A DNA stretch of 38,490 nucleotides, from the NCBI RefSeq assembly GCF_000337735.1, contig NZ_AOHX01000026.1:249154-287643 (forward strand), in the 5' to 3' direction. The position numbers and the translations under genes were made by a program. Source of the DNA: Natronorubrum sulfidifaciens JCM 14089 (GTDB lineage: Archaea; Halobacteriota; Halobacteria; Halobacteriales; Natrialbaceae). A model generated the notes under the pieces. The model had not been told where the DNA came from and made no database searches. It saw nothing but the letters and a program-made list of their open reading frames with translations. Shown in pieces: positions 21,995 through 26,763 of the stretch (positions within the stretch are counted from its first letter, which is position 1; every line of letters starts with the position of its first letter).

Positions 21995-23020
21995 TCACTC
22001 GTCGGCCTCGTCGGCCGCGTCGGCCAGTTCGGCGTAGGCGTCCCACGACGGATCGACGTCCGGATGCTCGAGTGCCTCGCCGTCGACGACCACGCCCGAC
22101 CCGGACTCGACGCGCCCGATCTCGGCGACGACGGTTCCCCGATCCTCGAGTGCGTCGCGAACGGCGTCGACACCGCCGGGATCGACAGCGAGCAACAGCG
22201 AGCCGCTGCTGGTCGCCGCCCACGGGTCGATCTCGAGGGCCGCACAGACCTCCTGTACGCCGGGACGCATGGGGACGGCGTCACGGTCGATCGTGAACCG
22301 GGCGTCCGCGCCGGCGGCCATCTCGTTGAGTGCGCCGGCGAGGCCACCCTCGGTCACGTCGTGCATCGCCCTGACGGGACCGGCCGCGGCCGCAGTGAGC
22401 GCATCGCGAACGCAGTAAACCTCCTCGAGTCGGTCCTGTGCGTCGGCGACGACGTCGTCAGAGAGCTCGAGTTGATCGCCGAAGAGGGTACTCAGGAGAC
22501 CGACGGACTCCACGGCGGGGCCGGTCGTCAGGAGCAGGCGGTCGCCCTCTCGTGCGCCGTCGGGGCGGACGATCGCGTCGTGGTCGCCGACGCCCATCGC
22601 GGTCGCCGCGCCGACCCACGGATGCGAGGGGTCCGAGTAGCGGGCGGTGTGGCCCGTAACGATGGCGACGCCGAGGTCGGCACACTCTTCGTGGATCGTT
22701 TCCCAGACCGTCGCGAACTCGTCGTCGGTCATCGTCTCGGGGAGGGTAAAACAGATCGAGAGATGAGACGGTGCGATCCCGCTGACTGCCACATCCGCGA
22801 GGATGAGATCGAGGGCGAACCGGGCTGCCCGCTCGAAGCCGAGCGCCGGCAGGATCGAGACGGGGTCGGTCGCGGTCACCAGTGCCTGCCCGTTGATATC
22901 GACGACGCCGAAGTCGACACCGTGTTGTGGGCCGACTGCGACGTCGCTGCGCTCCGCGCCGAGGTTCGGCGCGATGTGCCGGTCGAAGAACGAACGGTCG
23001 ATTTTGCCGAGGTCGCTCAC
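21995..23020 (-). CDS. AIR synthase/HypE-like protein, orphan
   Basis: This 341-residue protein has the PurM/HypE/SelD-type fold. It starts with SDLGKIDRSFFDRHI, followed by a nucleotide-binding N-domain (DFGVVDINGQALVTATDPV) and C-domain segments GDRLLLTTGPAVESVG, MHDVTEGGLAGALNEMA and ATSSGSLLLAV. No hydrogenase or selenophosphate genes are near, and the C-terminal PRYC tail of true HypE is missing. A hydrogenase-maturation role is therefore unlikely and the substrate is unknown. The longest frame starts at 23239, but the sequence before residue S2 is not conserved-looking. I choose the GTG at 23020 because a TATA-like TGCTAAGC lies 27 nt before it. Confidence 0.8.
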   Translation of the reverse strand: MSDLGKIDRSFFDRHIAPNLGAERSDVAVGPQHGVDFGVVDINGQALVTATDPVSILPALGFERAARFALDLILADVAVSGIAPSHLSICFTLPETMTDDEFATVWETIHEECADLGVAIVTGHTARYSDPSHPWVGAATAMGVGDHDAIVRPDGAREGDRLLLTTGPAVESVGLLSTLFGDQLELSDDVVADAQDRLEEVYCVRDALTAAAAGPVRAMHDVTEGGLAGALNEMAAGADARFTIDRDAVPMRPGVQEVCAALEIDPWAATSSGSLLLAVDPGGVDAVRDALEDRGTVVAEIGRVESGSGVVVDGEALEHPDVDPSWDAYAELADAADEADE

Positions 23021-23221: not shown

Positions 23222-23228
23222 GGGAGGG
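23222..23228 (+). promoter_or_regulatory. Shine-Dalgarno site of the H-NOX gene
   Basis: GGGAGGG ends 5 nt before the ATG at 23234. With an AT-rich TATA-like stretch at about 23176-23194, this suggests a message with a true leader, unlike most genes in the window. Confidence 0.5.
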
Positions 23229-23233
23229 ACCGA

Positions 23234-23866
23234 ATGCACGGGATTATTCTAAAAACGCTACAGGCGTTCGTCGTCGATACGTACGGCGAAGATGCCTGGC
23301 TTTCCGTTCAACGAGAGGCGGACATCGAGGAGAAAGTCTACGTACCGGTAACGGTCTATCCGGATCGCGACGTCTACGAACTCGCCCGTACGGCCGGCGA
23401 ACTCACCGATCAGAGTCCACGGACGATCCTGACCCAGTACGGCAAATGGGTCGTTCCGTCACTGCTCGAGACGTACGATCTGCATATCGACGACGAGTGG
23501 AACGGGCTGGAACTCATCGCGAACATCCAACAGTTTCACACGTCGTTGCGGACGCGGGATCTGACGACGCTGACGACACCGCGAATCCGCTCGGAGCGCC
23601 TCGGCGAGGACCGAGTCCGGATCACCTACGATTCGGATCGAATGCTGTGTGATGTCGCTCGCGGCGCGATCGCCGGCGTCGCAGAGCGATTCGACGAGGA
23701 CCTCATCGCCGAAGAACAGACGTGTATGCATGAGGGTGACGACGCCTGCCGATTCGATATTCGACGGGGCGGCACCGAAACGGCCACGATCGACGCCGAC
23801 GCTGAGTCGGCGGCCACCTTCGAGTTCGAGTCATCGAGCACGACCACCGGAGGGAGCGATGACTGA
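23234..23866 (+). CDS. H-NOX (heme NO/O2-binding) sensor protein
   Basis: This 210-residue protein has the H-NOX layout. It starts MHGIILKTLQAFVVDTYGEDAW, has the proximal heme ligand H102 (QQFHTSL), P116, and the heme-propionate motif YxSxR as Y132-D-S134-D-R136. These positions are almost the same as in Thermoanaerobacter tengcongensis H-NOX (H102, Y131, S133, R135). C139, C164 and C172 are also present; as I recall, cysteines at these places bind zinc in Vibrio/Shewanella H-NOX. The last 35 residues are a Ser/Thr/Asp-rich tail. Its stop overlaps the start of a chemotaxis transducer by 8 nt (ATGACTGA), so NO or O2 binding very probably signals to that transducer. I see no obvious distal-pocket Tyr, so NO sensing is favoured, as inference. 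Confidence 0.88.
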   Translation: MHGIILKTLQAFVVDTYGEDAWLSVQREADIEEKVYVPVTVYPDRDVYELARTAGELTDQSPRTILTQYGKWVVPSLLETYDLHIDDEWNGLELIANIQQFHTSLRTRDLTTLTTPRIRSERLGEDRVRITYDSDRMLCDVARGAIAGVAERFDEDLIAEEQTCMHEGDDACRFDIRRGGTETATIDADAESAATFEFESSSTTTGGSDD

Positions 23867-25478
23867 CGCCGCCTCGAGTGCGGACGATGGCTCACCGCTT
23901 CCCGGTGCGATACAGACGGCCCGACCGCTTGGGTTCGGACTGGCCGTCGTCGTCGTCGGGCTCGCCGTTGTTGGCCTCGCTGCCGTTGGCCTCGACACCC
24001 TGACGCCGGAACTGCTCGGCGTCGGTGCCGGCGGTGTCGTCGCCACCGGCGTGGCCGCCATCGCCATTGCCGCAGTCTCGGATGCCCGGACCGCACCACG
24101 CCAGCGCGACGAGCTTCGTGCGGCGATCGACGACGTCGCTGATCGGACGGCCCAACTCGAGGACGGCGACCGCGACGTCGACTTTCGAACCGACGGGGAC
24201 GACGCCGTCGCCGACCTCGAGACCTCGCTCGCGTCACTTCGCGATCAGTTGGTCGCGAGTGAACGAACCGATCAGTCGCTGAGCGATCTCGAGCGCATCG
24301 TCGAGACACACGCCGAGACGACCGGCTCGATCGCTGACGGCGATCTTACCCAGCGGTTCGAGCATCCTGCTGACCACGACGCAGTCGTGTCGTTGGCGGA
24401 CAACTCGAACGAGATGCTCGCCGAGATCGAGGAGACGTTCTCGACGCTGAAGTCGTTCTCCGGCGAGGTCGTCACCTACAGCCACGAACTGAACACGAGC
24501 ATGGAGACGGTTCAGGCCGAGGGCGACCGCACGAGCGAGGCGCTGACGACGGTCGCCGAGGACAACGAGGAACAACACGAACAGCTTCAGACCGTCGCCG
24601 CGGAGATGGAGTCGTTCTCCACGACGATCGAAGAGATCGCCGCGACAGCCTCGGAAGTCGCCGATACGGCGGACCGAACTGCACGGGCTGGCCAAGAGGG
24701 GAGTCGTGCCGCCGGCGATGCGATCGACGGGATGGACGTCATCCAGACCGAGACCGAACGCACCCTCGAGGAGATCGAACAGCTCGAAGCCGAAGCCCAA
24801 CAGATCGACGACCTCGTCGACTCGATCAGCGACATCGCCGAGCAGACGAACATGCTGGCGTTGAACGCCAACATCGAAGCGTCCCGTTCGGCCAGCGGTG
24901 AGCAAGGGTTCGGTGCCGTCGCCGACGAGATTCAGAACCTCTCCGAGCGAGTCTACGACTCGGTCAAATCCGTCGAAGAACGACTCGAGACGCTTAGAGG
25001 ACGAGCGATCTCGGCAGCCGACGAGGTCCGGACCAGCCGCGATCGGATCGAAGACAACGTCGACGACGTCGAAAACGCTGCGAACGCACTCGAGCAGATC
25101 GCAGAGCTCGCCGAGCAGACGAACAACGGCGTTCAGGAGATCTCTGCGGCGACCCAACAGCAGGCAGCCGCGACGGAGGAGGTCGTCGTGCTGGTCGAAA
25201 ACGCCGCCGAGACGAGCAATGCGACGGCGACGACGTCGGCGCAGGTGGCCCGACGGGCGGCCGCACAGGCCGATGCGCTCTCACACGTCGCCCACAGCGC
25301 GACCGTGCTGACCGAACACGCCGGCGAGTTGAACGCCCATCTCGAGCACTACGACACCGAAAGCGGCTACGAGCTGCCGGAGGCGAGAGCCGCCGACGAC
25401 GTCGACCCCGAGGCGGTCTCGACGGCCGACTCGATGTCCGACGTGATCGCCGACATCGACCCCGCCACGAGCGAGTAA
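23859..25478 (+). CDS. Methyl-accepting chemotaxis transducer coupled to H-NOX
   Basis: This 539-residue protein has two close N-terminal helices (about 24-44 and 50-73) with only a few residues between, so there is no extracellular sensor domain. Two HAMP-like helical segments follow (about 95-127 and 150-205), then a long MCP coiled coil. The tip is SDIAEQTNMLALNANIEASRSASGEQGFGAVADEI, the CheA/CheW contact region, flanked by Glu/Gln-rich candidate methylation helices. The C-terminal 40 residues are acidic. Because it lacks its own sensor and overlaps the H-NOX gene by 8 nt, its input is most likely the soluble H-NOX protein. The ATG at 23859 is preceded by GGAGGG; the longer frame upstream is the H-NOX gene in another frame. 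Confidence 0.93.
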   Translation: MTDAASSADDGSPLPGAIQTARPLGFGLAVVVVGLAVVGLAAVGLDTLTPELLGVGAGGVVATGVAAIAIAAVSDARTAPRQRDELRAAIDDVADRTAQLEDGDRDVDFRTDGDDAVADLETSLASLRDQLVASERTDQSLSDLERIVETHAETTGSIADGDLTQRFEHPADHDAVVSLADNSNEMLAEIEETFSTLKSFSGEVVTYSHELNTSMETVQAEGDRTSEALTTVAEDNEEQHEQLQTVAAEMESFSTTIEEIAATASEVADTADRTARAGQEGSRAAGDAIDGMDVIQTETERTLEEIEQLEAEAQQIDDLVDSISDIAEQTNMLALNANIEASRSASGEQGFGAVADEIQNLSERVYDSVKSVEERLETLRGRAISAADEVRTSRDRIEDNVDDVENAANALEQIAELAEQTNNGVQEISAATQQQAAATEEVVVLVENAAETSNATATTSAQVARRAAAQADALSHVAHSATVLTEHAGELNAHLEHYDTESGYELPEARAADDVDPEAVSTADSMSDVIADIDPATSE

Positions 25479-25659: not shown

Positions 25660-26763
25660 ATGGCGTATTCGCCCCGTTTATGGAACGCTTCCGGCCTCGA
25701 ATTCTCGACGGCAGAACTGACGGGTGCGCTAGGAGATTCAGTTACGGTCCTCCCCTTGCTTGTCGCCCTCGCAGCGACGACGAGCGTCTCGCTGCCCCAT
25801 GTGCTGGTCGGCTTCGGTGTCTTCCAGATCGTCTGGGGCCTGTATTACGGTATGCCGCTTTCCGTCGAGCCGATGAAGGCCCTGATCGGGCTGGCGATCG
25901 TCGGCTCGCTTTCCTATCCCGAACTCGCCGCCGCCGGGCTGCTCGCGGGTGGCGTCTTGCTCGCGCTCGGGAACCTCGGCCTCGTCGGTCGCATTCAGAC
26001 GGTCGTCGGCGAGCCCGTGATTCGCGGCGTCCAGTTCGCCGTTGCCCTGCTGTTGCTCGAGGCAGCCGTCGGGCTCTCGAGTGGCTCGCTCCCGACTGCT
26101 GTCGCCGGCCTCGCGGTCGTCGGGATGCTCGCCGTCGTCGGCTATCGACAGGTGAGCGTCTTGCTCGTCCTCGGTCTCGGAGGCAGTGTGGCCGTCGTGA
26201 CGGCCGGCCTTCCAGCGCCGCAGATGCCCGCACCCGTGCTCTTTCCCGCAGGCACGCCGTCGCTTTCGGGTGCGGCCCTCGAGGGCACCGTCGCCCAGCT
26301 CGGGATGACGGTCGGGAACGCGGCGATCGCGACCGCCCTGCTCTGTGGCGATCTCTACGACCGAAATGTCTCCCCCGATACCCTCTCGACGAGCATGGGT
26401 GTCACCTGTCTCGCGGCGATCCCGATCGGCGGTATCCCGATGTGTCACGGCAGCGGCGGACTCGCGGGGAAGTACGCCTTCGGTGCCCGAACCGGCGGGG
26501 CGAACATCATCCTCGGCGTCGGCTACCTCGCGCTCGCACTGGTCGCCACCGGAGCGCTGCTGGCTGCGTTCCCACTGTCCATACTCGGCGTCTTACTCGT
26601 CGTCGTCGCCCTCGAACTCGCGCGCGCGGCCGTCTCCCCCGTCGACGGCCACCGCGGGATTGCGGTCGTCGTCGGCGTCGGCATCGTCGGAGTGGCAGTC
26701 AACGTCGGCGTCGCTTTCGTCCTCGGGACCGTCGCGTTCTGGTTCGTTTCCCAGCGCGAATGA
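25660..26763 (+). CDS. MOT1-type (SulP-related) molybdate/sulfate transporter
   Basis: This 367-residue protein has about 10 hydrophobic helices. It has the two motifs I associate with MOT1 molybdate transporters: AELTGALGDSVTVLPLLVAL near residue 18, and PMCHGSGGLAGKYAFGARTGG around 262. It lacks the STAS domain of full SulP proteins. The likely substrate is molybdate, with sulfate as alternative, taken up across the cytoplasmic membrane. No molybdopterin gene is adjacent. I keep the ATG at 25660, right before the first family residues; I see no convincing TATA at leaderless distance. The 180-nt gap before it holds nothing else recognisable. Confidence 0.82.
   Translation: MAYSPRLWNASGLEFSTAELTGALGDSVTVLPLLVALAATTSVSLPHVLVGFGVFQIVWGLYYGMPLSVEPMKALIGLAIVGSLSYPELAAAGLLAGGVLLALGNLGLVGRIQTVVGEPVIRGVQFAVALLLLEAAVGLSSGSLPTAVAGLAVVGMLAVVGYRQVSVLLVLGLGGSVAVVTAGLPAPQMPAPVLFPAGTPSLSGAALEGTVAQLGMTVGNAAIATALLCGDLYDRNVSPDTLSTSMGVTCLAAIPIGGIPMCHGSGGLAGKYAFGARTGGANIILGVGYLALALVATGALLAAFPLSILGVLLVVVALELARAAVSPVDGHRGIAVVVGVGIVGVAVNVGVAFVLGTVAFWFVSQRE

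Follow-up and report, generated by a model that had tools for sequence, protein, structure and literature searches.

A gene pair encoding a predicted archaeal H-NOX protein and a sensor-less chemotaxis transducer in Natronorubrum sulfidifaciens

Described H-NOX and chemoreceptor systems

H-NOX is an NO receptor module of bacteria and animals. In the sensory rhodopsin II-HtrII system of haloarchaea, a separate sensor gene lies beside the gene of a transducer that spans the membrane with two helices and lacks an extracellular domain. Two arrangements of H-NOX are already known, as fusions to chemoreceptors (MCPs) and as stand-alone proteins with kinases. The H-NOX-MCP fusion of Caldanaerobacter (Thermoanaerobacter) tengcongensis (Tt/Cs H-NOX, 1u4h) is a single O2-binding chain with a distal tyrosine, Tyr140. 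The NO-sensing H-NOX proteins of Shewanella oneidensis, with HnoK, and of Vibrio are soluble and stand-alone, and their partner is a histidine kinase or a c-di-GMP enzyme (4u99, 4u9b; PMC7108781). Among archaeal che clusters, the Methanosarcina che2 regions lack CheF, and no H-NOX is mentioned there (PMC2666748).

The locus described here lies in a 38,490-nt stretch of the N. sulfidifaciens JCM 14089 genome (the window) and shares features with each of these systems. As in the Tt fusion, an H-NOX appears to feed an MCP, but the two are separate archaeal chains and Val141 takes the place of Tyr140. The Shewanella and Vibrio proteins share its fold, its Cys trio and the lack of a distal Tyr, whereas its partner is a chemoreceptor. 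The gene layout resembles that of sensory rhodopsin II-HtrII, in which the sensor is a membrane-docking rhodopsin and not a predicted soluble heme protein. The first-pass annotation had described H-NOX as little known in archaea. This agrees with the open literature, in which we found no study of an archaeal H-NOX (most subscription journals were outside our coverage); as far as that literature shows, the combination of stand-alone H-NOX and separate transducer is undescribed as an archaeal chemosensory module. We propose, with moderate confidence, that the pair works as a cytoplasmic gas receptor in two parts, in which a heme-containing H-NOX, most likely responding to NO, signals to a co-translated transducer with an output other than the archaellum.

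The H-NOX and transducer genes

The features of the locus in window coordinates are listed below.

23222-23228, + strand: GGGAGGG, read from the sequence as a putative Shine-Dalgarno-like element 5 nt 5' of the H-NOX ATG
23234-23866, + strand: H-NOX (heme NO-binding) ORF, 210 aa (PF07700, AlphaFold2 fold, 29-sequence alignment)
23537-23539, + strand: His102 codon, predicted proximal heme ligand (35/35 transducer-linked, 0/66 prs-linked proteins)
23579-23581, + strand: Pro116 codon, predicted proximal proline against the heme (invariant)
23627-23641, + strand: Tyr132-x-Ser134-x-Arg136, predicted to clamp the heme propionates (unchanged in every transducer-linked protein)
23648-23650, + strand: Cys139 codon, first of the conserved Cys trio (invariant; place of an S. 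oneidensis zinc ligand, PMC7108781)
23654-23656, + strand: Val141 codon, counterpart by alignment of the O2-stabilising Tyr140 of Tt H-NOX
23723-23749, + strand: Cys164 to Cys172 codons (CMHEGDDAC), with Cys139 a predicted zinc or redox site
23849-23854, + strand: GGAGGG within the H-NOX 3' end, read from the sequence as Shine-Dalgarno-like, 4 nt before the transducer ATG
23859-23866, + strand: 8-nt stop/start overlap, ATGACTGA, common to the H-NOX end and the transducer start
23859-25478, + strand: transducer (MCP) ORF, 539 aa (MCPsignal; PDB chemoreceptor matches)
23925-24077, + strand: two adjacent hydrophobic helices, residues ~23-44 and ~50-73, with a loop of ~5 residues (low-confidence AlphaFold2 model, hydropathy)
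24708-25208, + strand: MCP signalling region, residues 284-450, including the kinase-control tip (PF00015)

Judged by profile match and predicted fold, the first protein is a genuine archaeal H-NOX, and it is predicted to bind heme. Residues 2-157 match the PF07700 profile with 112.8 bits (curated cut-off 25.5; E 2e-32). An AlphaFold2 model, predicted using 29 relatives, has a mean pLDDT of 83 and comprises an H-NOX domain (residues 1-178) followed by a low-confidence tail of ~30 residues. H-NOX and soluble guanylate cyclase structures were the top matches in a Foldseek search with this model, the best being the S. oneidensis H-NOX structures 4u99 and 4u9b (target-normalised TM 0.86-0.90; for 4u9b, TM 0.90 and E 1e-14). 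His102, Pro116, Tyr132/Ser134/Arg136, Cys139, Cys164 and Cys172 are invariant among the 29 aligned haloarchaeal H-NOX proteins. Both the profile match and the way the pair is conserved, described below, go far beyond chance. The first-pass annotation, made from the sequence, had named the protein an H-NOX, listed these residues and suggested structure prediction and alignment to PF07700 as a check; both recovered the H-NOX, with every listed residue in place.

The 8-nt overlap, also noted in that annotation, and its surroundings support translational coupling of the two predicted genes. Most Natrialbaceae relatives have a purine-rich stretch, GGAGG or GGGG, at a similar position. The transducer ATG is at -8 relative to the H-NOX stop in 17 of 21 Natrialbaceae pairs and at -4 in 2; for the remaining 2, and also for family f7, GTG at -8 or ATG at +1 could serve as the start. 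Across all 33 pair-bearing genomes the start lies between -8 and +1 in 25. The two genes are separated by ~120 nt or more in families f4 and f6 and two f3 genomes, where the pair is inside a longer operon.

The second protein matches MCPsignal (E 4.3e-27) and, in the PDB, chemoreceptors (best 2ch7, E 3e-18). Its AlphaFold2 model has a pTM of 0.33, too weak for a fold search. In the model, a long cytoplasmic hairpin follows the two hydrophobic helices, and neither its secondary structure nor hydropathy revealed an extracellular domain, as the first-pass annotation had described. The HAMP-like segments that it also proposed stood only in part: the low-confidence model contains helix-connector-helix units at ~79-130 and ~139-190 that are no closer than HAMP-like, and the Pfam HAMP score of 11.6 bits is under the cut-off of 25. 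Two H-NOX-linked transducers of 459-462 aa (L069:5646-7025 and L071:5632-7011) have no membrane helix at all, which makes the proposed input through a soluble heme protein plausible.

The pair is flanked by genes for a molybdate-transporter-like protein downstream (25660-26763; PF16983) and an AIR-synthase-like protein on the opposite strand (21995-23020). Neighbours of similar size recur in many Natrialbaceae relatives, indicating local synteny.

Distribution of the pair, its paralogues and che operons

We searched 391 Halobacteria genomes for PF07700, retrieved the DNA around the matches, predicted its genes with a codon-usage script and sorted the 115 H-NOX-like proteins by their partner gene. 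PF07700 was present in 85 of the genomes. A transducer lies directly downstream on the same strand of 35 H-NOX genes in 33 genomes from five families, so the two genes are kept together in relatives, one of the points on which the first-pass annotation had hung its proposal. Tandem H-NOX genes are found at two of the transducer-linked loci. A search among close relatives gave 12 named Natrialbaceae loci in Natronorubrum and Natrinema species.

All 35 transducer-linked proteins keep His102, Pro116, YxSxR and the Cys trio. A further 66 H-NOX-like paralogues adjoin, in a housekeeping block, a prs-like gene (ribose-phosphate-pyrophosphokinase-like, ~285 residues), which was identified by eye in a single sequence and assigned elsewhere by length and strand; none of the 66 has His102. 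N. sulfidifaciens itself carries one copy of each kind. The heme His thus tracks transducer linkage. Of the sequence evidence, this speaks most strongly for heme use by the transducer-linked proteins; the prs-linked paralogue probably has the H-NOX fold without being a heme protein. In the paralogues (L058:5008-5559, in the source genome C33:29410-29889, and ~66 loci), Tyr, Val, Ala, Thr and other residues replace the proximal His, with YxSxR or YxTxR and the Cys trio mostly kept. Among the 43 His-bearing haloarchaeal H-NOX proteins, eight have no adjacent transducer (L035, L047, L074, L055, L056, L063, L033 and L048). The L055 gene is flanked by two PAS histidine kinases, and genes resembling those of oxidoreductases, cupins or NifU lie near the others.

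Distances between H-NOX proteins and between their partner MCPs are correlated (r 0.95, 30 pairs; 0 of 2000 permutations as high), in part because of shared species history. On the H-NOX tree, which cannot be rooted safely given its long branches, transducer linkage requires ~5 changes. It may therefore be old with losses, or have been gained repeatedly.

The pair is part of che operons in three families, whose members were assigned by Pfam for representatives and by resemblance for the others. In f4 (L158), H-NOX and transducer are followed by CheW, CheY, CheA, CheX-like, CheC and CheD. In f6 (L161, L162), CheY, CheA and CheC precede two H-NOX genes, the transducer, CheW, CheC-like and CheD. 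The f3 operons (L163, L164) run H-NOX, transducer, CheW, CheY, CheA, followed in L163 by CheC and CheD. No CheF match was found in these f4, f6 and f3 operons; CheF is encoded at other sites in the f4 and f6 genomes, next to archaellum genes in the case of G078. In two genomes of one genus (G276, G182), the H-NOX-linked MCP is the sole MCP and all CheW domains are within the H-NOX che operon. Within this genus, che genes occur in all three genomes that encode an H-NOX, and no CheW domain is found in the three that lack it; G633 was left out as a near-duplicate of G276 (same H-NOX and CheW coordinates; 9% contamination). Family f16 (MAG-like, GC ~0.41), which belongs to a different class of the phylum, also has a che operon with H-NOX, in the order transducer, CheW, CheY, CheX, CheB, H-NOX, CheA.

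Tandem H-NOX genes before one transducer (L161, L162 and G276:C1:2619202-2620258) make heteromeric or dual-range sensing possible. Divergent to the H-NOX che operon in f4 and f6 is a gene for a truncated globin (L158:8856-9221, L161:6060-6422, L162:5788-6147), matched by PF01152 upstream of the operon in L158, which fits the NO theme.

Ligand, output and alternative readings

The mechanism that we infer, from heme binding and the NO ligand to physical contact, the sign of the CheA effect and the output, would run as follows. The soluble H-NOX would hold heme through His102 and sense NO, possibly CO, but not O2. NO would displace His102 and rotate the two halves of the protein, as H-NOX biochemistry describes for the proximal His and the subdomains, where the distal subdomain contacts the kinase (PMC7108781). 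Direct contact would carry this change to the co-translated transducer, a protein that lacks a ligand-binding domain and would form an array with CheA and CheW. The transducer would then alter CheA activity, with CheB, CheR, CheC and CheD providing adaptation and phosphorylated CheY as the output. In the source organism, CheY may act on type IV pili or adhesion, or on another CheY-binding protein; as no archaellum was detected, a target other than the archaellum is more likely.

Evidence on the ligand comes from the distal pocket. In our alignment, Tyr140 of Tt H-NOX presumably falls opposite Val141 of the window protein; the YxSxR conserved in relatives in the PDB gives the same register. At this position all 35 transducer-linked proteins have Val, Ile, Leu, Phe or Trp, never Tyr. 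A distal Tyr is described as requisite for O2 binding in H-NOX, and proteins without it as excluding O2 (PMC8738867). Its absence favours NO (or CO), and from these sequences the ligand is most likely NO, possibly CO, and not O2. An O2 sensor for aerotaxis-like control, which the transducer partner would recall through the O2-binding Caldanaerobacter fusion, is thus most improbable, and O2 can be dropped from the first-pass proposal of NO- or O2-guided movement. That proposal also implied swimming, which we consider unlikely for either gas, the missing Tyr speaking further against swimming on O2. In its favour, ArlD/E is present in 9 of 18 tested pair-bearing Natrialbaceae, so about half have archaellum markers, and family searches of the source genome found a full che set, its single complete che cluster (G000:C39, locus L166: CheW, CheY, CheB, CheA, CheC-type, CheC, CheD, CheR). 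The genome has five MCPs. However, the same searches detected no CheF, archaellin or ArlD/E (PF04283, PF01917, PF04659) in the source genome, nor in its congeners G292 and G329 (99-100% complete), while these models match in Haloferax volcanii. CheF is essential for relaying taxis signals to the motor in Halobacterium salinarum (PMC2666748), and the H-NOX che operons of other families are without CheF even where the genome has it elsewhere. Archaellum-driven guided movement is therefore unsupported in the Natronorubrum source. Four other Natrialbaceae (G116, G143, G233, G328) have archaellins and ArlD/E and no CheF match.

The main rival with real support is heme-independent redox sensing, in which oxidation of a zinc site at Cys139, Cys164 and Cys172 would signal to the transducer, as proposed for a heme-free Vibrio cholerae H-NOX. 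These cysteines match zinc ligands of the S. oneidensis protein (PMC7108781), are invariant in the linked proteins and persist in most paralogues that lost the heme His. However, the fourth ligand position, 161, is His in S. oneidensis (His/Gln) and Glu in the window protein, as in most or all of the 35 transducer-linked proteins. Pure redox sensing would not need the invariant heme pocket, and the che-operon H-NOX of f16 has no Cys139. We regard redox sensing as a fairly unlikely account of the pair. It is very improbable that the two genes are merely co-transcribed neighbours, with H-NOX acting on another partner. The eight His-bearing proteins without an adjacent transducer would allow this, but the pair is kept despite different flanking genes in five families, lies inside che operons in three and is the sole receptor module of one genus.

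On the output side, a T2SSF (type II/IV secretion F) protein and small pilin-like membrane proteins (DUF7288, DUF7289) are encoded at L166:2-5062, convergent with the source che cluster, and a similar arrangement is found in L167 and L168. We take these pilus genes as a weak lead to the output, as the operon is convergent. Assignment of the source CheA to the type found in H-NOX operons was dropped, its BLAST scores being nearer to the archaellum-type CheA of G078. NirK co-occurrence was likewise set aside as uninformative about NO production (22 of 33 pair-bearing genomes against 208 of 391 overall, only slightly commoner).

The two-piece gas receptor that we prefer is supported by the PF07700 and predicted fold matches, by His102 occurring with the transducer and not with prs, and by the presence of the pair in five families and in the che operons of three. 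The sole-receptor genus, the f16 operon and the source che cluster without archaellum markers also argue for it. Against it, a family search found no NirK in the source genome, leaving no NO source by that route, and the conserved Cys trio may also allow redox sensing without heme. More tentatively, and with somewhat less than even confidence, we suggest that archaea have a dedicated NO-sensing chemosensory pathway, running from a stand-alone H-NOX through a sensor-less transducer to a Che system that is without CheF and drives no archaellum; in one haloarchaeal genus, it would be the whole chemosensory repertoire, with one receptor.

A heme-competent archaeal H-NOX linked to chemosensory arrays would add archaea to the organisms with NO signalling. 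The pair would be a case of gas receptor and chemoreceptor as separate proteins, and the single-receptor genomes would offer a simple test system for a chemosensory role in cells without detectable archaella.
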